A stretch of DNA of 64,000 nucleotides from Branchiostoma floridae. Taxonomy: Eukaryota; Chordata; Leptocardii; Amphioxiformes; Branchiostomatidae. Below are positions 10,256 to 41,642 of this stretch, one piece after another. The stretch is from NCBI RefSeq assembly GCF_000003815.2, contig NC_049990.1:7258770-7322769 (forward strand), given 5' to 3'. Below the pieces are notes generated by a model, which worked only from the letters and a program-made list of their open reading frames with translations, was not told the DNA's origin and did not search any database. The translations under genes and the position numbers were made by a program. Each line of letters opens with the position of its first letter. Position 1 is the first letter of the stretch.

Positions 10256-10617
10256 GGGCTACTGCGATCACTTCGTGCCTCATCAGTTCTGTGAACTACA
10301 CGGTTCCTTTTGTTATACAGGTAACATTGCCATAGGGCTATTAAGGAGGGGCCGTGTTCAACACACAAATGTGCCTGATAAAACAAATTAAAACCCAGAA
10401 CCTTTGAACAGCTTCTAAGTCAACAACCATAACCGTAAGACCACTTTGCTACGATTTTGCTACCAATGGCAACAGCTAAGCCCCCCTGTTTCGTTTGACT
10501 GCCGTTACAAATTTTCTGACGAAAAGAGTCACGTACTATTTATTAAGTTCACAGGTGCGCCCCTGAACCGGTTTGTCTACTCATTGTCCTTTATCAACTC
10601 CAGTCGTGGTCTATAAA
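10256..10617. other. 5' flank of the P450 gene
   Basis: No coding sequence recognised. TATAAA at 10613 abuts the ATG and is too close to act as its TATA box unless the start lies downstream. No other promoter element stands out. Confidence 0.4.
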
Positions 10618-13600
10618 ATGGCTACCGCAGTCTTTAGGTGGATAATTCAGTCCGTGCAGGACACTTTACAGATCTATGGGCTGAATTTGCAGTCTTTGCT
10701 GGTCTTCTGTACGGCGTTTGTCCTGGCATGTGCACTTCTGAAACGTTCCCCAAACCTGCCTCCTTACCCGGCAGGACGTGTGCCTGTTCTCGGGCACCTC
10801 CTCGCATTGGGCCGAGCGCCACACCTCAAGCTGACGGCGTGGAGGCGGCAGTACGGGGACGTCTTCACCGTCAGGATGGGAATGGAAGACGCGGTGGTTC
10901 TGAACGGCTACACTGCCGTCAAGGACGCGCTCGTGGACAGGTCCGAGCTGTTCGCATCCAGGCCGCCAAACTACCTGTTTGATTTGACAGTTGATTCCGG
11001 AAAAGGTAAAACATTTCATTTCCATTGCTTTGTTAGTTTTCTACATTGCCAAATTGGAAACATAGTTGTCATGGTAAGTGTTAGGAGACATCGATCAGTT
11101 TCTGTATCTATACATTTTCATGTACGAAAGGTGGTATCTCACTGCACTTGCGTCAAGCTTGCGTCACTGTGAGGTTCGTTCGCATGCGTACTGTTTTGTT
11201 ATTTTCTCCGATTTTTAAAAAAATTTAGATATTGCGTAATACGAAAAAATATGACTTAGAAGACGACAAACTACACAAAAAGTAAGAAAATTCGTTCTTT
11301 ATCTCTAAAATTCGTTGAGTATCGAACCCGGCAGTGACGCAAGCGTGACGCAAGTGCAGTGAGATGCCACCTGAAGGGTTGGGAGGAAGCATACCATTCT
11401 GTTCTCCATACCCCGCGGACAAAGGCTAAATCTTGCCGCGGAGGCGTATAACTACAGTCTTGTTACGCAATGGACCATTAAGGGGGCACACCCCAGTTTA
11501 TGTCGGGTTTCAATTGGAGACTGTACACCCCCAAGTCTAGCGACCATCTCTTCCAGGAAATTATCCTGCAGCATACTAATTCTATATGGGGGTAAAATGG
11601 CCAACTGACTTCTGATCCTTCAATTTCTCTAATTTAGAAAAATGAGAGGAAAAAATTCATTGGGCATTTTCGCATTGGATAAAACCATTAAAAAGATTTT
11701 TCCGGCAAACACGACTGATACTGTCAGAAAGAGAAAAATCTTGCGAGTAAAGAAAATTCTAGTAAACTACAGTTTTGTAATCATCCACGTCGCGCGGCAT
11801 TGCAACTACGCTTACACATCACCTCAGAGGTCAATCTAGGTCACAGGACATTCAAGGCGTAAGGATACCCGGAAATAACTTCGGGCAAAAACACAATTTG
11901 CACCCAAAACATATAATTTCCTACGCTTTTCAGCCACGTTAGCGTTTGATGTCATTTCCCAGTAAATAATCACAAATGTAAACTCACACATAGACCATCG
12001 GAAGCTTTTCATCACCTTTTTGTCGTACACCACACCTGAGGTGTGTACCGTTAATGATTTTAATAATATGTACTATATTTGATCTACATGCGATCGCAGG
12101 TAACATTATCAAATATAGTAACTGTTACATAGCATTTGATATGACAAAGATAATGTGGTAAAATGTGATAAATTGTCTGCTATACATGATTGTAAATATA
12201 TCATATGACATCTTTGTTCCTTAAGACATTGCTGCTGCACGTTGGGGGACCCAGTTTAAACAGAGAAAGAAGTTTGCACTCACCGCCTTAAAGAACCTGG
12301 GCATGAAGGTCGGAAATGGCAGCATTCAGGAGAGCATCCGCGAGGAAGCGAGCAATCTACGAAACAGGGTTAGTTACCTTTGAATAACTACTTCTTGGTT
12401 GATGTCTACGTCTACCACATGTGTCCCTTGTTGCCAAAATTCCAGGTCTTTCCAGGATGGTACCAAAACAAAAAATACGCATGACGGTTTATAAATAGAA
12501 AACTCATATACAGTTCCTGGAATTCTTACTCTTACTCTAACCCTAACACAGTACACATCATTAGGCCCGTTCCATGAGAGTGTCGCCAAAATTAGTTATG
12601 CAAGATTCTACGCTGAATAGACTCGTTATTTACTGATGAAGGAATTGTTTAGATTGCAGAATACGAGGGTGAGCCCTTTGACATCGCCCATGACGTCACC
12701 GTGACGGTTGCAAACGTCATCTGCTCCATGACGTTTGGAAAGCGCTACGACTACGAGGATGAAACGTTCCGCGAGCTGTCTGAAGCAATTTTCACAGTAA
12801 TGGCTGAAGTTGGAGCCGGACAGATCGTCAGCGTCTTTCCTTTGTTACGGTTTGTTCCTGTAGGTGAGTAGAGCTCTCATTACTGAGCATTTCCTAATTG
12901 TGATTTCTACCATGTGTACTGCAACGTTCTTCAGGTTCGAATGACCACAATTCACACGGACGCGTGACCATGGTTAGCCTTATGACGTGACGTCAGCAGT
13001 TGATCTGAAGTGCCGCATGTACTGTATATGGTCTCTTTTACACCTTTCAATGAAACTTTATTTGCAAGTTCTTTCCCGATGGCTAATTGCAAGTAACAAA
13101 AATGATAAACGATGGTAAACTGTGTACAGTAGTAGGCGACTAGTTCTAGTGATAAATTCAAATAAACAAAAAAAAAAAAGCAACAAAAATTGCTATTGGA
13201 TTTGACTCCTTTTTCGGAGACAGTAGAAGACGAATGATTCCACCTTTTCGATATGTGTGGGTTTACATGTATTCCCATCATGAAGTAACTGTTGAGTGTC
13301 CAGGACTTTGCCCTTGTCCAGAAGATTTTAGTATATGGTTCACTCGACTCTGAAGTATGGTTACAGTAGAGACTGACGACCATGGTGGACTTTTCTTTGT
13401 TGTATTGTATAACAAAAATACCTTATTATAAAGAAACTTTCCTTCGTTTCAAAGTGTTACAAAAATAGTACTTAGCCAACAATCTATGAATATTGCCATC
13501 CACAGCGAACCGAGCCAGCGTCAGTGTATCTCGACAAATCGCCAAGATCCAAAAAGTGCTGAAAGAAGAAATGGCCCGCCATCGAGAACACCTGGATCGC

Positions 13601-22426: not shown

Positions 22427-25400
22427 ATGACTGCGTTAAAATCACCGTACAGCATCGAGGGAATCCTCGGGCGGACGAGCAACCCCTCCCGAGGGAGCGA
22501 CGGAAGAGGGTCGGTGATCGTAGCGGGACTTGGCCTGATCGGACCAGCTCCAGGGGCAAAGGAATCGCGCTCTATCCTCGTACAAAGTACGTACCAAACT
22601 CCTCTCTCTCTCAGCGCCAAACTGTGTCTGTACCAAAGTTTGCGTGGAACTGCAGTATGTGTGCATAGCTGTTCTCATCATTTTGCACGCAACGCCGACG
22701 TTAAATAGTGGTTTACGCTACTCGATGATCCGTTACGGTATCACGCCTGTCTTCTTTAGTTGCCACACTTCGCTCATCAGTGCTAAACGACCATCAGACA
22801 CGCTCTGCTACGCCACAGTCGTCTTAATTTGATTACTTGTCTTTAATAGATGTTTGTGTGGTTAATGAGTTAAGTAAATAACGCCTGTTGATTCGCGCCG
22901 CGGGAATATTGTATTCAACGCTTATTATAGGGCGACATTACACAGTTCGTTAACCGCTAGTATGCGAGCAACATTTTGGCTCTTTCCATGTTTCAGCGCT
23001 GCCTTTTAGATACAAGTGATTACGCCATGGTTTGGCTCCTCTACCCTGGTCTAACCCGACCCCACTTTCTGTGGCCGATCCGGTTGCATACTGCTCCGAT
23101 TGCTTTACAATTAGATTACAGCAAAAACTATATATGTAGTAACGCAGACTGTATAGTTTAATACGCATGCACGCCAAGTATGCGTCCCGCTCGCATTGCT
23201 CTTTCCGCCAGAGATGGTAGCCGGGACAGTCATTATCTCCCGCTGTAATGCTTTCTTGCACGACACAAACGAGTCCAAATTGCCCCCCTTTGTCGAAAAG
23301 CTCGGGTAATGCGGTAAAACTTTGCCCCATTTCCGACGATTTTCCCCCGCCGCTTTCTGGAGTGTTTAAGAGCGTGATAAGGGGACCCCGTCGTGATATG
23401 GATGAGATGGGCAACTATCTGACTATGTTCTGTATCACATCATTCTTCTTTACGTCTAAAAATCTAAAACTATTGTAGATATGTCCGACATTAAGGGGAA
23501 GAGGTACATGCTAGGTGATGATTTTTGGATGAGGATTCATGAAATGGAACATAACAAGGAAGCAGTGAAGATAAAATCCTGTAGAATAAGTAGGGAACCG
23601 GAGAATCCAGTTGTCAGGGGGCCTAATTTGGTCCCGTATTTTGATGGATGTGTCAATACCTTTGCCAGTTGTCAGATTCTTCAATTACATCCCGCACCAC
23701 CAGCGTCCCGTCATCATTTACCGACCCCGGGAGTTGAAAGGTGCCAATTACTGGGTCGTAAAAAACTAAATAGCGCCGCCGCGATCGCACTGCCCTACCC
23801 CGGGCCCCCGGAGAGAAACACCGAGCCCAAAAGGACTCCCTAAAACCCAAACTCAAACCTAAAACTCTGCCTGAATAAAGAGCAAATTGCATTAATTCAA
23901 AAGCAAACTTTCCCCGTGGCTCAATTCTCGCCTTTTCTTTGCAGAAAATTGCGGCGGGATGAATGCGGAGGTGGCGACGATCGGGAGAGCTGCAGGGCAC
24001 GAGGACAATAGCGGGGAGAGTGCCGCCCTGGATTTCTCCATTAAGAGAAAATCAGCAGAGGACAAGAAAGACTTAAAGCAAGACTTAAACAGAAACCATT
24101 TCTCGGAGAAAGACATCAAAAAGGAGGACATGCACGAGGGAGAGGACAGCGGGAGCGAGAGCGATTGTGGGCCGCTGGGGAGCGACCTGCCACCGTGCGG
24201 CAGTCCAACAAGCTCCGGTGCCGTCCACGAGGACAAACTGAACGATCTCTGTGACAGTATCAACGGACAAGTGAATTCTTTAGCTGGAATCGACTTGGAA
24301 AACGGCGGGAAAAGGAAACAGAGACGCTACCGAACAACTTTCACAAGCTACCAGCTGGAAGAACTAGAACGAGCATTTGCCAAGACCCACTACCCCGACG
24401 TTTTTACCAGGTGGGCTTTTCTTCATTTCTGCTCTTCTTTTGACCTCTTAATAGTAATCAATTTGCAAGTTTATGCCCGTAGGCTAATTTCAAGTACATG
24501 GTATAAACATAGGAGATATACAAGTGACAATAAACAGTGGTAAACATTATTGTGAAAAGAGGCTACTCGAATACTAGTGTTGGCTATTTCTAAACAGGTT
24601 GTGTTTGACTTCTTTTTAAATAGTTTTCTTTAATGAAGAACACCAGAATTGAAAATTATAACTTGCGTTCATACCTTATAAACCATGCTATCAGCATAAT
24701 TGTAACTTTAAGGTCATAAGGCCATGGTATGGATGTGAATATCATTTTGCAAATACCTTATTTTCTACCAAACAAGTTGCGCGGTTTTTAGGTTGCAACC
24801 GTATTGCAGTTTACAACAATAGGGGCACCACAAATGACAAATGCGAAAAAGAGAGCGGATATAGGCCATTGGTTTAATAGCGCTATAGCCAAATTATTAT
24901 TGTTATTTTAATTCACATTGAAGGCTAGTTTGTTTGTCCATTTGCGGGCCGGGTCGGCGTTCTTGACCGCAAGAATGCCCGGCAGGCTTTGAGGACAGTG
25001 ACAGCGGCTCCGGCCACGAGTGTCCCGTACGGACAGACGTGAGGGATAAGAAGGGACCGACAAGTCCATAAGACCTGAGTAGCTAATGACATCAGGGGAA
25101 GGGGAAGGGTGACACCCCGACACCGTAACTCCGACAGTTGACGGGACCGTCGCACTAAAATTAGCCGGGTCTGTATTTTCCCAGCTGCCGGGAGCGCGTC
25201 GGTTGCCCGGCTTTAATTTCACCCGCGTAAGATCTTCACTTTCCTGATATTAACTCGAGCAGACCAGAGGTCGGACCGAACGGACAGGAAAATTGACCTT
25301 TCCTAATGTGGGATTCTGTCAATGACATTAGATTATGGCGGAACATGGGTGGGCGGCCCGGCCCGGCTACCCGGAGAGACTGTTGTTCTAGACACGCTGC

Positions 25401-31400: not shown

Positions 31401-32792
31401 GACGTATAATCACCGTTCTTGAGCGACAGACAATCATCCCGACTTTAAAGGAGCCCTGTTGGATATGGCGTGTTACATGCCTCTTTATTCCCGTTAGTTA
31501 CGGGCCGATTGTTCAGGGAAATGCAGTTTATAACAAAGTGGCAGCTGTAGTATTCTCTATGTGTTCGTAAAAACCTTTAAAGGTTTTTACGTTGTTTTGA
31601 CGAAACTCTTGCGTTTATGAGCTATTTACAGAAAACATTTAGTCCAGACTGTTTTACGTCAATACAGTGAAAGTTCACTTAAGGGCAGATCCACATATTT
31701 GCTTCGTATCCAGATAGTTTTCATAAATCATATATTTTGTTTGATCCTATATATTACTGCAAAATGAGCGGTACAATATATTTGTGAACCTCTCCGACTA
31801 TTTCAAATGCCGAAAAAATCATCCCTAGGCAACTGAATTTTCTGTTCACAAAATAAAGACTTACTACAAGAGGAGGCAAAAGAATACGACATCCTCTCAA
31901 ATTCTTTTTTGACTGTCGTACTGTATGCAGTAGCCAGTAGTATGCAAATGTCCTACTGATCATGATTCCTAAACCCTTTTCCTACAGTCTTACACCCCCT
32001 TTCCAATAGGACGGCGCTTTCGTCGCGCTCTCTCTGCGCTCCTCAAATTTAAGAGATCGCTCAACGAATTGTTTAGAAAAACGAATCTCTTAATGCTTTG
32101 TGTGTTTTGTTGTCTTTTCAGTCACACTTTTGTATGATATGCCCAGTATGGATGTCGAAGGTAAAACACACCCGTTTTAGGTTGCAGTGAGAGCGCAGCG
32201 CGATCGCTGTCTAAACGAAATGGGCCTTATTTTAGTTATATAACAGTGTATATCAATATGAAATATTCTATTGCATATCTGTTGTAACATGGCCCGTATA
32301 TTGTTGTTACAGGTTTGGTTCCAGAACCGGCGAGCCAAATGGCGGAAGCGAGAAAAGGCCCAGGCCCAACAGCAAGCCCAAATGCAGCTCCACCACCCCG
32401 GGGGCCTCCCGGGGGTCCATCCCTACCTGGACATGGGCTGTGCTCCCCACCACCCTGGGGAACATCCCCCGGGGGTCCCCGGTCTAAGCTGCCCGCCGCT
32501 GTCCCCTCTCCCTCCCGCCCTCCACCCTGGATCGTTCCCCCTCCACCCTGCCCTCGGCGGTGGGCTGCTCAGAACGCCGCTGGGTCCGGCGGGGTTCTCG
32601 CCGTTTCTCCGCGGGGCCGCTCCCGTGTTCCGCCCAATGCTGCAGGTGGACGGCTTGCAGGCGCTGGCTGAGTCCGACCGCCGGGCATCCAGCATCGCCA
32701 CCCTCCGCCTCAAAGCCAAGGAGCACTCGGCACAGATCGAAGCGCTGGGACAACACGCTAAACCTGCCACACTGAAGGAGGTGTGCTCCTGA
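22427..32792 (+). CDS. Arx: Aristaless-related homeobox (Arx), 4 exons, 383 aa
   Basis: Exons: 22427-22586, 23945-24410, 29984-30029, 32313-32792 (TGA); 1152 nt, 384 codons in one frame. A paired-like homeodomain transcription factor, nuclear. Exon 1 carries an octapeptide/eh1-like repression motif (YSIEGILG, residues 8-15), as in Arx. Exon 2 has an acidic Ser/Glu-rich stretch, then [20 protein letters not shown]. The homeodomain (about 179-238) is split by introns after ...PDVFTR and after ...TEARVQ, the second leaving [13 protein letters not shown] in exon 4; position 50 is Gln. The exon 4 tail is Pro/His/Gly-rich and ends in an OAR motif ([16 protein letters not shown], ~347-362) and KEVCS, close to the vertebrate Arx terminus. 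The poly-alanine tracts of mammalian ARX are absent. The exon 1 link rests on a GTACGT donor and exact phase match; an alternative start is the in-frame ATG at 23959. Confidence 0.93.
22587..23944. other. Arx intron 1
   Basis: Fairly GC-rich for this window, particularly 23170-23400 and 23640-23900, with CAAATTGCCCC-type motifs also seen in the 30560-31140 block. Two chance-length frames (23248-23478, 23481-23843) are not recognisable proteins. Candidate regulatory DNA. Confidence 0.4.
24930..25430. promoter_or_regulatory. Candidate cis-regulatory island in Arx intron 2
   Basis: GC-rich block inside an AT-rich intron, with clustered homeodomain-type TAAT/ATTA cores (AAAATTAGCC, CTTTAATTTCACC, TCCTAATGTGG, GACATTAGATTA). 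Composition shifts sharply at both edges. Enhancer function is inferred from position and motif density only. Confidence 0.35.
25579..25794. mobile_element. Palindromic miniature element in Arx intron 2
   Basis: Inverted arms of about 57 bp (from GTGTGGACTTCTTAGC at 25579, to GCTAAGAATTCCATAC at 25794), sharing the invariant inner block CAGGCTCCACAGGT. About 75% arm identity by eye; no clear target duplication. Confidence 0.7.
30030..32312. other. Arx intron 3, 2.3 kb
   Basis: Contains the 30560-31140 block described separately. The remainder is noncoding; the pyrimidine-rich stretch near 31970-32060 has no clear function. Confidence 0.5.
30560..31140. promoter_or_regulatory. Candidate conserved enhancer in Arx intron 3
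   Basis: A ~580-bp segment rich in short motifs repeated with variation: CAAATTG/CAATTAT/AAAATTG (at least eight times), CTAATTC, TAATCA, ATTATTG and ATTTGCTTAG, alternating with CG-rich spacers. It does not read as coding. Its base composition differs from flanking AT-rich intron. The dense homeodomain-type cores inside a homeobox gene intron suggest auto- or cross-regulation, which is inference. Confidence 0.4.
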
Positions 32793-38084: not shown

Positions 38085-41000
38085 TTAGATAAGGCATGCA
38101 GGGTTGTTGCAGTACTCCCAGCGGGTGCTAGGGTCCGTTGTGTAGCACCACAGGCCGAGCGCCCCATCCGGGTTGCGGCAGTAGTTCTCGGGCGGGTCAG
38201 AGTGATTATCAAACCACCACCAGTAGTAGGGATAAGCGTGTGGATAGTTGAGATCCCATCGCTGACAAGTCTTCCCACTTCTAGTGACGGAGAGATTCCC
38301 GCGGTAGTCAGATCCGTCACTCTTGTCTGGGCAGACTGGGCCATAAAAAACATTTTGTGATTATGCCAAAAAGCAGTTACTCAAGTTACTTAAGTCTTTA
38401 AATACATCTCTTACTCTCTTCCCTCTTTCTCAGTTACATATGTGACAACTTTGAAAGTACTATAAAGGAATGCAGTGGATTTATGAACTTTTCCTAATCA
38501 ATTATGCAAATTAGCTGTTAATTTGCATAATAAATATCACATTATATAAGTCTTCACTTAGGCTATTTACATACCAAAAATCATGACGATCCGTCAACAC
38601 GTTCATATTTTCTAATTAATTATACAAATGAGGTCGTCATTTGTACGATGAATATGTCTTAACATTTCTCTCTTTTTCAGCTACATATGTGACAAGTTTT
38701 AAAGTCCTATCATGGAATGAAGTGGATTTATAAAATGTCCTCATTAATTATGCAAATTAGCTGTTGCTTTGCATAATTGGTATCTCATTATGTAGGTCTT
38801 CACTTACGCTACCTACATACCAAAAAAACATGATAATCCGTCAACATCTTCATATTTTCTCATTAATTATTCAAATGAGGTCATCATTTGCATAATTTAT
38901 ATCTATTGACATTTCCCTCCTTCCCAGCTACATATGTGACAAGTTTCAAATTCCTATCATGGAATGCAGTGGATTTATAAACTTTCCTCATTGATTATGC
39001 AAATTAGCTGTTGATTTGCATAATTAGTATCCCATTATGTAAGTCAACACTCATTCTATCTACATACCAACAATCACGAAGATCCGTAAACACGTTGTAG
39101 AGTTATTCTCGTCCAAAGTTTGAAAGGAAACCGGCGCCTGCTGCAAAGCGGCGCCTGCTGCAAAGCCGCTAGGAGGCCCAAACTCACAGCACTTACTCTC
39201 TGCCCCAAGGGCTATCTACCACTCAAAAATCATGACCACAACATGTCCAGAACACGAGATATAAAAAAATGAGTTTCCGATGCAGTACCTTAGCAAGCCG
39301 CTAGGGGGCCCATTATCGAACTTGACCTTCGTTTTCCCGACCCCTACCCATCTACCAAATATCATCAGGATCCATCCAAGGCTTCTTGAGTTATGCTGTT
39401 GACACAGAGACACACAAACACGCCCAAAACATAACCTTAGCCATTCTGACGAAGGTAATAAAAGTACAAACTGTAAATAGTAACCTGTTTTATCCGCATT
39501 CTTCATGAGGCAAGAGGCGTGGTCACGTGATCCTTCATCTGAAGCAGGAAAATGAAAACCATAATGAAACTTAACATATATGAGAGTCTTTACATATATT
39601 AAGTGTTAATAAGATTTCGTAGACCATGAAAAGCAATTTGGAACCACACGGACATCAGTAGATGTCTCAAAATGTACTATCCAAGCAAAGATTAGGCTCC
39701 GGCTGTTTTTTTTTCACATTTTTTTTTCACTGGACTGCAACACGGAGGAACTTCAAGGAGAGGAGCTGGTACGGTGGACAAGAGGTGGGTATGCAGGTGA
39801 ATAAAAGTTGCAAATGGCTGAATTGCAGGTAAGTAAAAAGAAATTGTCGTGACCTACCCTGTGTCAGCTGACAGATGAATTTCAGAGTAGTGTCGCACCT
39901 CAGGTCATTCCACCCTCTGCCCCTAGCGGAAACGTAGTGCACGCAGTCTTCCCCGGCCCCGAAAGCGTCGTCTGGTTGGCCCGGTTGCCAGTTACCCCAA
40001 TCAGAAGTCGCGTTGTATGGCGTCCAGTCTACCCACATCCACTCACCCTCGCCCAATTCATCGCTCAGCCCGAACCAGAAATATTCGCCACTATCCACGG
40101 AGTTCTTCAGCTTCACCAGAAAGGTGTCGAGGTCTTGGTTCTTCGGCATGGCCAGGAGCCCCCCGTCATCTTCACACACATGTCTGGCCTGGCTGTACGT
40201 CTTGGCTTGGTTGTACGCCTTGAAGAAAGTTCCGTCGTATGAAGTGTAACCAGAAGGACAACCTGGGGAAATATGATCATCCATAAGTTAATGTATGTAG
40301 ATTTTGTTTTTGTTCAGCTAAGTTTTGCAAGTTTAGGTCTGGTTGTGGGCCTTGAAGCTTCCATTGTTATATTATATAACGTTATATGGAGTATAACCAG
40401 AAGGACAACCTATTGAAATGTCCCTAAAGGGTCGTTCTGACTTGGTGCGGAGTGTAGACAAAAGGACAACATGTTGAAATATGGTATTCCTTAAGTTAAA
40501 GGTTGGAAGTTTAACAAGAAGGACAACCTGGTGAGATAATGATAATCGTTTAGGTATATGTCGCAGGTTTGGCGTTTGCTTGTTCGCCTTGAATCATGGA
40601 TATCAAAAGCTATCAACCACCCAAACAATCTGAACAAAGCGTGTCCATGAAATAAAGATAGATTGAAAAAAAACTGCTTCGACATAATTTCTTAATCATT
40701 TTTGCAAATGTTGTCCTATTTTGCATAATCTACATTTCACCTACATACCTACCAAATTTGTTGTTCCTTTCTTAGCTTCACTATAGTTAACTTCAGTTAC
40801 CGAGTTATCTTGACGGTTGTTCACCAAATATGACCACCACTTTTCGCGGAGAAAGCGTTGACAAAAAAATGAAAACAGCGAGAAAACTATTATCTCTCTT
40901 GTCTAATTATCCTTCTTTTTTATTTTATCATACCCCAATTAAAAACGGGTAAACAGTACACAAAGTGGACGATATTAGGCTGTGCATGAAGTAGTAGCGC

Positions 41001-41642
41001 TACGTTAGGAATTGATAAGTTACTAGTAGGCAACAATACCTTTTTCTGTTTTACCTGGTTGATCAGTGGTTGTCTGCGGAGTGCGGAGATCAACCAGTGT
41101 TTGATCTCGATTAGGAGAGCCGGTAAACTGCAGCTGTGGCCTGCCTGCAAACGTGTAGGTTGTCGTTTCGTTGGAATCTGGACCTATAGGAGAAAGTACC
41201 ATTGAAAAATCTTCGAATTCAGACAAAGATGGTTGAATACGAACAATAGGTACGTGAAGACTTAACAACAACACTCACAATACGTGTTATCGTAGCCTGG
41301 GTTCCATCCGATTTCAACCGAGGCTTCTTACGTACACTCGCTGCCCTTTGCTTGTTTTTGCAACATCGAAACTCCTTTCCAGTCCTGTTTCTAGTATTCT
41401 AAACGGAGGAGATGAACCATTGGAAAATACAACACTACAAAAGAATTCCAAATGTTGCAAAAACAAGTAAAACACCGAAAATGAGAAGATACAACATACA
41501 CTTCGTCGAGACGGTGAATGTAAATAAAACAATAATAATGATAATTATGATCATTAACGGTGTACTTACAGTTTGAAGAGATACACCCCATGGCAAGCAT
41601 CATGCCGAAAATGACCAGCATTCTCTGTTTTGTGGCCCCCAT
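38085..41642 (-). CDS. Secreted C-type lectin-kringle protein, 4 exons, 285 aa
   Basis: Minus-strand exons in order: 41570-41642, 41055-41183, 39858-40262, 38085-38335 (TAA); 858 nt, 286 codons. Exon 1 is a signal peptide (hydrophobic MLVIFGMMLAMGC core). Exon 2 is a 43-residue Thr/Gln-rich linker. Exon 3 is a long-form C-type lectin domain: CPSGY start, VCEDDGG, QPGQPDD with the QPD motif linked to galactose-type binding, EDCVHY, WND and a final FICQ. Exon 4 is a kringle with six Cys (CPDK, CQRW, NYCRNPDG, LWCYTT, YCNNPAC), ending four residues after the last Cys. All three introns are phase 1, the class used in exon shuffling. Predicted extracellular; a sugar-binding role follows from the lectin motifs, while function of the combination is unknown. 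Confidence 0.9.
38425..39085. repeat. 247-bp tandem repeat, about 2.7 copies
   Basis: The landmark CAG(T/C)TACATATGTGACAA occurs at 38431, 38678 and 38925, exactly 247 bp apart each time. Each unit includes an ATTATGCAAATTAGCTGTT block and a 'cataccaaaaatcatgacgatccgtcaac' type block related to the dispersed ACCTTCGCC-family repeat. Lies in the last intron of the lectin-kringle gene. Confidence 0.9.
39086..39470 (-). repeat. Dispersed repeat, ACCTTCGCC family, copy 4
   Basis: Minus orientation: GCCGCTAGGAGGCCC and GCCGCTAGGGGGCCC, then CCTACCCATCTACC, AAATATCATCAGGATCC, CCCAAAACATAACCTTAGCC and GACGAAGGTAATA. It begins at the end of the 247-bp array and seems to be two joined partial copies. 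Confidence 0.75.
39680..39735. mobile_element. Solo arm of a TCCAAGCAGA-type miniature element
   Basis: CCAAGCAAAGATTAGGCTCCGGCTG followed by a T-run closely matches the right arm of the element at 60028-60201. No opposite arm is found nearby, so it is a truncated copy. Confidence 0.6.
40263..41054. other. Intron of the lectin-kringle gene
   Basis: Noncoding. Contains three short near-copies of the exon edge motif AACCAGAAGGACAACCT (at about 40248 in the exon, 40396, and degenerate ones at about 40455 and 40513), i.e. the lectin exon 5' boundary appears duplicated into the intron. Confidence 0.5.

Follow-up and report, generated by a model that had tools for sequence, protein, structure and literature searches.

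A 64,000-nucleotide stretch of the lancelet Branchiostoma floridae genome (contig NC_049990.1, positions 7,258,770 to 7,322,769; this whole stretch is the window in what follows) carries at 38085–41642 of its minus strand what we read, with a probability of roughly 0.65, as a single four-exon gene. It would encode a secreted protein in which a signal peptide and a linker precede a C-type lectin domain and a C-terminal kringle, a protein built by phase-1 exon shuffling and able to link a protein partner to a surface that bears glycans.

The four exons (41642–41570, 41183–41055, 40262–39858 and 38335–38085) splice into an uninterrupted frame of 285 codons closed by TAA; upstream, an in-frame stop precedes the ATG by two codons. 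All three introns are GT-AG and all are phase 1, the codon being split after its first base. Coordinates, splice-site ends and open frame thus agree with the intact 285-residue chain that a preliminary description of this DNA had proposed. That description had also called the exons symmetrical, which is true of the two internal exons (exons 2 and 3, of 129 and 405 nt, both 1-1) but not of the kringle exon, which is terminal and has a phase-1 boundary at its 5′ side only. The gene is laid out as follows:

41570..41642, minus strand: exon 1, start codon and signal-peptide-like sequence with a phase-1 end (donor CAAACT/gtaagt; the frame opens two codons before the ATG)
41055..41183, minus strand: exon 2, Thr-rich linker, a 1-1 exon (from splice sites and frame)
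40263..41054, minus strand: intron 2, with two partial copies of the lectin-exon acceptor region
39858..40262, minus strand: exon 3, the entire C-type lectin domain, a 1-1 exon with QPD and WND (from Pfam, relatives of solved structure and residue comparison)
38336..39857, minus strand: intron 3, 1,522 bases, with a tandem repeat inside; crudely scanned for a first exon
38085..38335, minus strand: exon 4, the entire kringle domain with six Cys, then TAA (from Pfam, relatives of solved structure and residue comparison)

The codon at the junction of exons 1 and 2 encodes Cys25, and an alternative exon 2 donor after 41040 would add five residues in frame. The signal peptide, Thr-rich linker, QPD/WND lectin and six-Cys kringle of the preliminary description could all be located. 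Thr makes up 23% of the linker, and the strongest hydrophobic 15-mer of the chain, residues 8–22, is its sole strongly hydrophobic stretch, no other segment resembling a membrane helix. Because the hydrophobic peak is confined to these N-terminal residues, secretion is the natural reading of the product, which contains four N-glycosylation sequons. Both longer introns hold repeats: in intron 3 a 247-bp unit is present in 2.6 tandem copies with 84% matches (38419–39070), and in intron 2 the segments 40506–40547 and 40385–40419 partly repeat 40238–40281, that is, the lectin-exon acceptor and its first bases, possibly as remnants of local duplication.

The domain assignments were borne out by Pfam, which at E ≤ 0.001 found nothing in the 285-residue chain besides Lectin_C and Kringle, both over their cut-offs. 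Lectin_C (PF00059) covers residues 87–199 at 67.1 bits against a cut-off of 22.6 (E 2.7e-18; profile positions 2–106 of 107), and the best relatives of solved structure are domains of the macrophage mannose receptor, PLA2 receptor, langerin, CLEC4F and CD209. Its four core cysteines (97, 174, 190 and 198) are all present and presumably form the two conserved disulphides. The N-terminal hairpin disulphide of the long form is incomplete: Cys69 is kept and the second cysteine is replaced by Phe (TFFK), a position at which 14 of 14 lectins of the channel-type loci described below have the cysteine (CFK or CYK). The replacement would leave Cys69 without its usual partner and available to Cys25 in the linker, the pairing that we infer, so that all twelve cysteines of the mature chain, an even number once Cys20 of the signal peptide is set aside, could be paired.

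Sugar-binding C-type lectins carry EPN or QPD, together with WND and an intervening Glu. The window lectin has QPD at 163–165 (in the segment QPDDAFGAGEDC), the Glu of GEDC and WND at 185–187, residues which we take to make up the second calcium site of such lectins, and calcium-dependent sugar binding is plausible. The preliminary description went further and drew galactose-type ligands from the QPD, a deduction that proved weak. In galactose-type lectins QPD is followed by a stacking Trp and a Gly-rich loop; here the QPD is present and the subsequent stacking Trp is absent (QPDDAFGAGEDC). Moreover, the first motif differs among the lectin relatives compared (QPD, QPN, EPN or EPD), and since it varies in this way ligand specificity has probably moved often. 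Nothing beyond the QPD letters backs galactose as the ligand, and a galactose preference is weakly supported.

Kringle (PF00051) covers residues 208–283 at 77.0 bits against a cut-off of 34.3 (E 1.5e-21; profile positions 4–79 of 79), with its six cysteines at 204, 226, 255, 266, 278 and 283 and with plasminogen and HGF kringles, and those of prothrombin too, as best relatives of solved structure. The chain stops directly after the kringle and contains no trypsin-like domain, which sets it apart from the plasminogen/HGF family. The preliminary description had regarded the kringle as a protein-binding module; the six-Cys domain is there, but without the acidic pair of the lysine-binding site. 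Lysine-binding kringles have DxD or DxE after CRNP, together with Trp and Arg, the acidic pair being, as we take it, kringle positions 55 and 57. DGA stands at this point in the window kringle and ERR in its copy on contig C1 (below). In a comparison set taken for the most part from the top Pfam scores in our genome search, DxD/E occurs in 20 of 35 other non-channel kringles and in none of 12 channel-type kringles, a set that excludes loci L028 (partial kringle hit) and L033 (kringle not found). Classical lysine binding is unlikely because DGA replaces DxD/E.

A six-frame search of the whole genome (513.4 Mb, 431 contigs) at first look returned 528 kringle and 1,565 lectin candidates. The best 150 of each were scored, and all 150 exceeded the cut-off in both cases; these counts are lower bounds because the window's own two exons are missing from both lists. 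Among the best 150 of 461 kringle candidates, the C1 copy is 67% identical to the window kringle and the next five relatives, on C7 (25.14 and 25.32 Mb) and C11, are 62–68% identical. Several of the kringle relatives sit in runs of kringles (C7 at 25.14, 25.32 and 13.1 Mb; C11 at 19.64 Mb). Trees were built without hits that cover less than 85% of the probe or hold a stop and without L012–L023, which are second copies of places already included. A first kringle tree made the window and C1 kringles exclusive sisters (99/96); it had missed the nearest kringles, and adding five of them (three from C7, one from C11 and one from C4) broke the pairing. In this fuller tree of 54 kringles and about 80 columns, the window, C1 and five added kringles form a seven-row clade (100/98) apart from the other sampled kringles, within which the window kringle joins the five from C7, C11 and C4 (96/84), leaving that of C1 immediately outside this group.

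The lectin exon points elsewhere. Its 18 best relatives are 48–60% identical (best 136 of 1,467 candidates scored), and a tree of 26 lectins, from which the duplicate L027_245 (the same as L026_8145) was removed and to which the incomplete lectin of L042 was added manually, places the window lectin in a 20-row clan (84/92). There its sister is the C1 copy (88/65, not starred), and the two fall inside a starred six-row set (97/92) that includes lectins of L025, L026 and L041 and adjoins the channel-type lectins. Near the C7, C11 and C4 kringles no lectin relative was found among the best 136 of 1,467 or the best 150 of 1,565 lectin candidates. The lectin and kringle exons therefore have different kin, which fits the exon-shuffling prediction: the locus combines phase-1 module boundaries with modules whose nearest kin lie in different gene sets, as expected of a phase-1 exon-shuffled modular gene and as the preliminary description had supposed.

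We tested by sequence whether the lectin and kringle exons are linked in one gene because a lancelet ‘fusion’ of Lectin_C and fn2, predicted in two species, had proved from expressed sequence tags to be two adjoining genes (PMC4967905; here and below, papers are cited for those portions of their text that were available). This precedent is one of several points that weigh against our reading. If the first-look candidates (528 kringle, 1,565 lectin) were placed uniformly, about 1.3 cases of a lectin followed by a kringle on one strand within 1.6 kb would be expected genome-wide; with both exon types this abundant, the adjacency is less striking than the domains, which are themselves far beyond chance. 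Neither AATAAA nor ATTAAA was found within 1.1 kb 3′ of the stop, where there are weaker variants only. Single-sequence AlphaFold2 prediction of the chain reached a mean predicted local distance difference test score of only 33.6, and a fold was not obtained. The C1 kringle is not the sister of the window kringle in the fuller tree, though the DNA of the two loci is collinear. Finally, the C1 copy is broken and so shows that the pair travelled together, not that the pair is used, and the ratios of nonsynonymous to synonymous change (dN/dS) between the two copies come with no significance test.

The alternative of two adjoining genes, a lectin gene ending in or after exon 3 and a kringle gene with a missed first exon, is unlikely, and it is the one to which the first three of these points lend weight: the same error is documented in lancelets for Lectin_C beside fn2 (PMC4967905), both exon types are dense enough for chance pairs, and the end of the gene has no strong poly(A) signal. 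Against it stand the exons themselves. The frame of the lectin exon meets no stop at the exon end but runs on for 43 further open residues, and the donor of this exon is in phase with the kringle acceptor; the kringle exon has an acceptor ahead of the domain and no Met codon in its open frame. With an open 3′ frame and donor on one side, and an acceptor and no Met on the other, neither exon reads as a self-standing end. A search of the protein against the 64-kb window with tblastn found no second lectin or kringle exon, and beyond the four exons of the gene only weak pieces at E 4 or more, and a crude scan of intron 3 found no convincing phase-1 signal-peptide exon, the four short candidates reaching a hydrophobicity of 1.56 at best.

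The locus on C1 at 25.83 Mb also argues for one gene. There a paralogous lectin and kringle follow one another as in the window, separated by 1.3 kb as against 1.5 kb, and the DNA of this locus is collinear with that of the window at 72% identity in the lectin, 71% in a block of intron 3 and 77% in the kringle. The C1 kringle ends in CLI and a stop, like that of the window. By the method of Nei and Gojobori (NG86), dN/dS between the copies comes to 0.39 over the lectin part and 0.57 over the kringle. At C1 no start of the lectin exon was found, the part that follows is in a different frame, and exons 1 and 2 were not found, so that this copy looks decayed in the present assembly. Partly decayed and collinear, it supports the single-gene reading.

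Lectin and kringle exons also meet elsewhere in the genome. Among the 150 lectin and 150 kringle exons scored, one same-strand lectin-then-kringle pair within 5 kb was observed against 0.11 expected. This pair, L009 (C12:21711500–21720500, minus strand), consists of a lectin, a lectin split in two exons and a kringle; a donor-like GTAAG follows the kringle, and the locus is probably another, longer lectin-kringle gene. At L010 (C8:3611500–3621000) the order is reversed, with a kringle exon followed about 4.3 kb downstream by a lectin exon on the same strand, and at L027:2242–3129 a frame that by eye is pentraxin-like runs directly into a lectin domain, a further lectin combination.

The relatives of the window lectin led to a set of putative longer genes from which another alternative arises. 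Fourteen of the 18 best lectin relatives head longer exon series (L024 and L028–L040, on C15, C19, C17, C16, C6, C8 and C4); the remaining four (L025, two in L026, and L041) have no such series in the stretches examined. In L036 (2957–8105) the Pfam order is Lectin_C, Ldl_recept_a, Kringle, Sushi, Neur_chan_LBD and Neur_chan_memb, with two unnamed exons between the LDLa and the kringle. These two had by eye suggested a Frizzled-type Cys-rich domain, an impression that was dropped since neither Pfam nor PDB sequences called it. Exons of the other loci were located by tblastn with the L036 and L030 exons. Downstream of the lectin, LDLa is present in all 14 loci, kringle and sushi in 13, channel ligand-binding exon or exons in 12, and within 10 kb the exon for transmembrane segments 1 and 2 (TM1-TM2) in eight. 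In L024 kringle and sushi are present and the ligand-binding-domain exon was not found; in the examined stretch of L033 (C6) there are the first exons of the series only, and kringle, sushi and channel exons were not found.

The phases repeat as well. A common series (lectin 1-1, LDLa 1-1, unnamed exons 1-2 and 2-1, kringle 1-1, sushi 1-1, then 1-0, 0-0, 0-2, 2-1 and 1-1) was assigned by a splice chooser to seven of the 14 loci over the exons found (L024, L029, L031, L036, L037, L038 and L039). L032 departs from it at one exon that was not located and nowhere else, L033 and L040 do not conform to it, and the chooser gave no result at one exon each in L028, L030, L034 and L035. The chain from lectin to TM2 is open in L029, L031 and L037 and contains one stop in L036. 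When the L036 channel exon cores were joined, their best match was to acetylcholine-receptor beta subunits (E 7e-25), then to others such as alpha-4, and the Cys-loop encloses 13 residues. Read exon by exon, thirteen loci (L024, L028–L032 and L034–L040) carry lectin, LDLa, two unnamed, kringle and sushi exons in that order, 12 of them with nicotinic-type channel exons as well; L036, L029 and L037 show this most clearly, and the set resembles a family of ligand-gated channels headed by a lectin. At least nine nicotinic-type genes are reported to form a lancelet clade in a paper (PMC6354393) of which the available main text contains neither ‘lectin’ nor ‘kringle’, and ‘lectin’ does not occur in the available part of PMC4795631. 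A B. belcheri–B. floridae pair with a novel architecture containing Neur_chan_memb (PMC4967905) may be one of these channel-type genes. Among the papers listed from the open-licence PubMed Central literature, no title or abstract opening dealt with lectin-headed channels.

The window gene is outside this family. It could nevertheless be a shortened descendant of such a gene, a free ectodomain left after loss of the LDLa, the two unnamed exons, the sushi and the channel, and we consider this very unlikely. At 13 of the 18 best lectin relatives' loci a kringle does lie 2–4 kb downstream within the exon series, and approximately unbiased (AU) tests do not reject the link. With the window and channel-type kringles held as one clade, p was 0.512 on the first sample, the held tree being slightly likelier, and p-AU was 0.221 after the five nearer kringles had been added, on about 80 columns; with the window lectin held with the channel lectins (L042 left out), p-AU was 0.082. 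The window kringle, however, is 32–41% identical to channel-type kringles as against 62–68% to the five on C7 and C11, and it groups with those of C7, C11 and C4 at 100/98, the channel-type kringles standing apart on a branch of about two changes per column. The window lectin, too, groups with non-channel lectins (97/92), and the other exons of the channel series have left no trace on the window minus strand, where no LDLa, sushi or channel exon matched at E 1e-3. Derivation of the window kringle from channel-type genes is disfavoured. That the locus is a recently shuffled or decaying one that is not expressed, as the broken C1 copy, the repeats in introns 2 and 3 and the over-representation of lectin domains among genes that some lancelets have and others lack (PMC12373286) might suggest, is likewise very improbable given a copy open over 285 codons with all splice sites intact, every structural cysteine of both domains kept except the optional hairpin one, and dN/dS below 1 against the C1 copy.

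For a single secreted lectin-kringle gene, the most likely account would be the following. The lectin exon would come from one lancelet lectin clan, and the kringle exon from a subfamily on other chromosomes, partly in kringle runs; the kinship itself is read from similarity and trees, the direction of movement being presumed. The lectin would bind sugar chains at a calcium site made up of QPD, the subsequent Glu and WND, with a ligand class that QPD alone would not fix. Lacking a complete lysine-binding site, the kringle would serve as a rigid, disulphide-bonded module for lysine-independent protein contacts. With Cys25 joined to Cys69 and all twelve mature cysteines paired, the product would be a soluble, glycosylated, two-headed binder, a bridge from a glycan-bearing surface to a protein partner. 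A more speculative extension, which we think improbable, starts from the members of the lectin clan that head nicotinic-type channels: the window protein might be a free secreted reader of the same glycans, a decoy or bridge where microbial or self glycans gate or position such channels.

Elsewhere in the window, on the plus strand, a homeobox gene of the paired class that has an OAR motif is divided among exons at 23896–24540 and 32262–32789, and we take it to resemble Arx (aristaless-related); at 10567–11169 there is an exon in which a cytochrome P450 domain begins (46.1 bits). Pfam analysis of 20 of the 307 stop-to-stop open reading frames of at least 60 residues in the window found parts of the homeobox gene and the P450 only.

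The window gene is a clean, small case in a dispute over lancelet genomes, between fast formation of new domain combinations (PMC4284660) and errors of gene prediction (PMC4967905), and the evidence of exons, phases and kinship can be read at it directly. Its interest rests on this testable case and on the lectin-headed channel-type genes reached through its lectin, which, if transcribed as read, would be an unfamiliar neurotransmitter-type receptor with a possible glycan-binding head. The preliminary description had measured novelty against standard vertebrate architectures, a misplaced yardstick for a lancelet genome, in which such combinations are common. B. floridae has 300 genes that combine a lectin domain with other domains (CTLDcps; PMC10140915), and lancelet exon shuffling, mostly via 1-1 exons, is reported to be frequent (PMC4284660). 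A secreted pair of one lectin and a single kringle was not found described in the open-licence PubMed Central literature, covered largely at the level of titles and abstracts, so that far the claim of novelty stands; as an exon order, lectin then kringle recurs at L009 and at the 13 channel-type loci, and to that extent it does not. Because the genome is very rich in both exon types, the pairing is best seen as a fresh combination made by an ordinary lancelet process.

Among known systems, the CTLDcps likewise join one C-type lectin domain to another extracellular module via phase-1 exons (PMC10140915, PMC4284660), the partner in the window gene being a single C-terminal kringle. Adhesion G-protein-coupled receptors of B. 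floridae with Kringle, Somatomedin B and Lectin_C domains have the same two mobile modules in their ectodomains but are seven-helix receptors, in contrast to the secreted two-module protein of the window (PMC2246102). The lectin-headed channel-type series share a lectin exon that is 54–60% identical and of the same phase, with a kringle downstream; the window gene differs in having no LDLa, sushi or channel exons and a kringle of another subfamily, and in being read as secreted. Its kringle is closest to those on C7, C11 and C4, up to 68% identical and in the same clade (100/98). Among solved structures, the best tandem and single-domain relatives of the lectin exon belong to the mannose receptor, PLA2 receptor, langerin, CLEC4F and CD209; these are membrane receptors without a kringle, and several of them use EPN where the window lectin has QPD. 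Plasminogen, HGF and prothrombin share the kringle signature and six cysteines, as the best solved relatives of the kringle exon, and differ in their protease domain, which the window protein lacks. A parallel for its binding site is a plasminogen kringle, presumably kringle 3, in which the alignment has DGK where the window has DGA; both lack the full acidic pair of a lysine site, and plasminogen kringle 3 binds lysine poorly.

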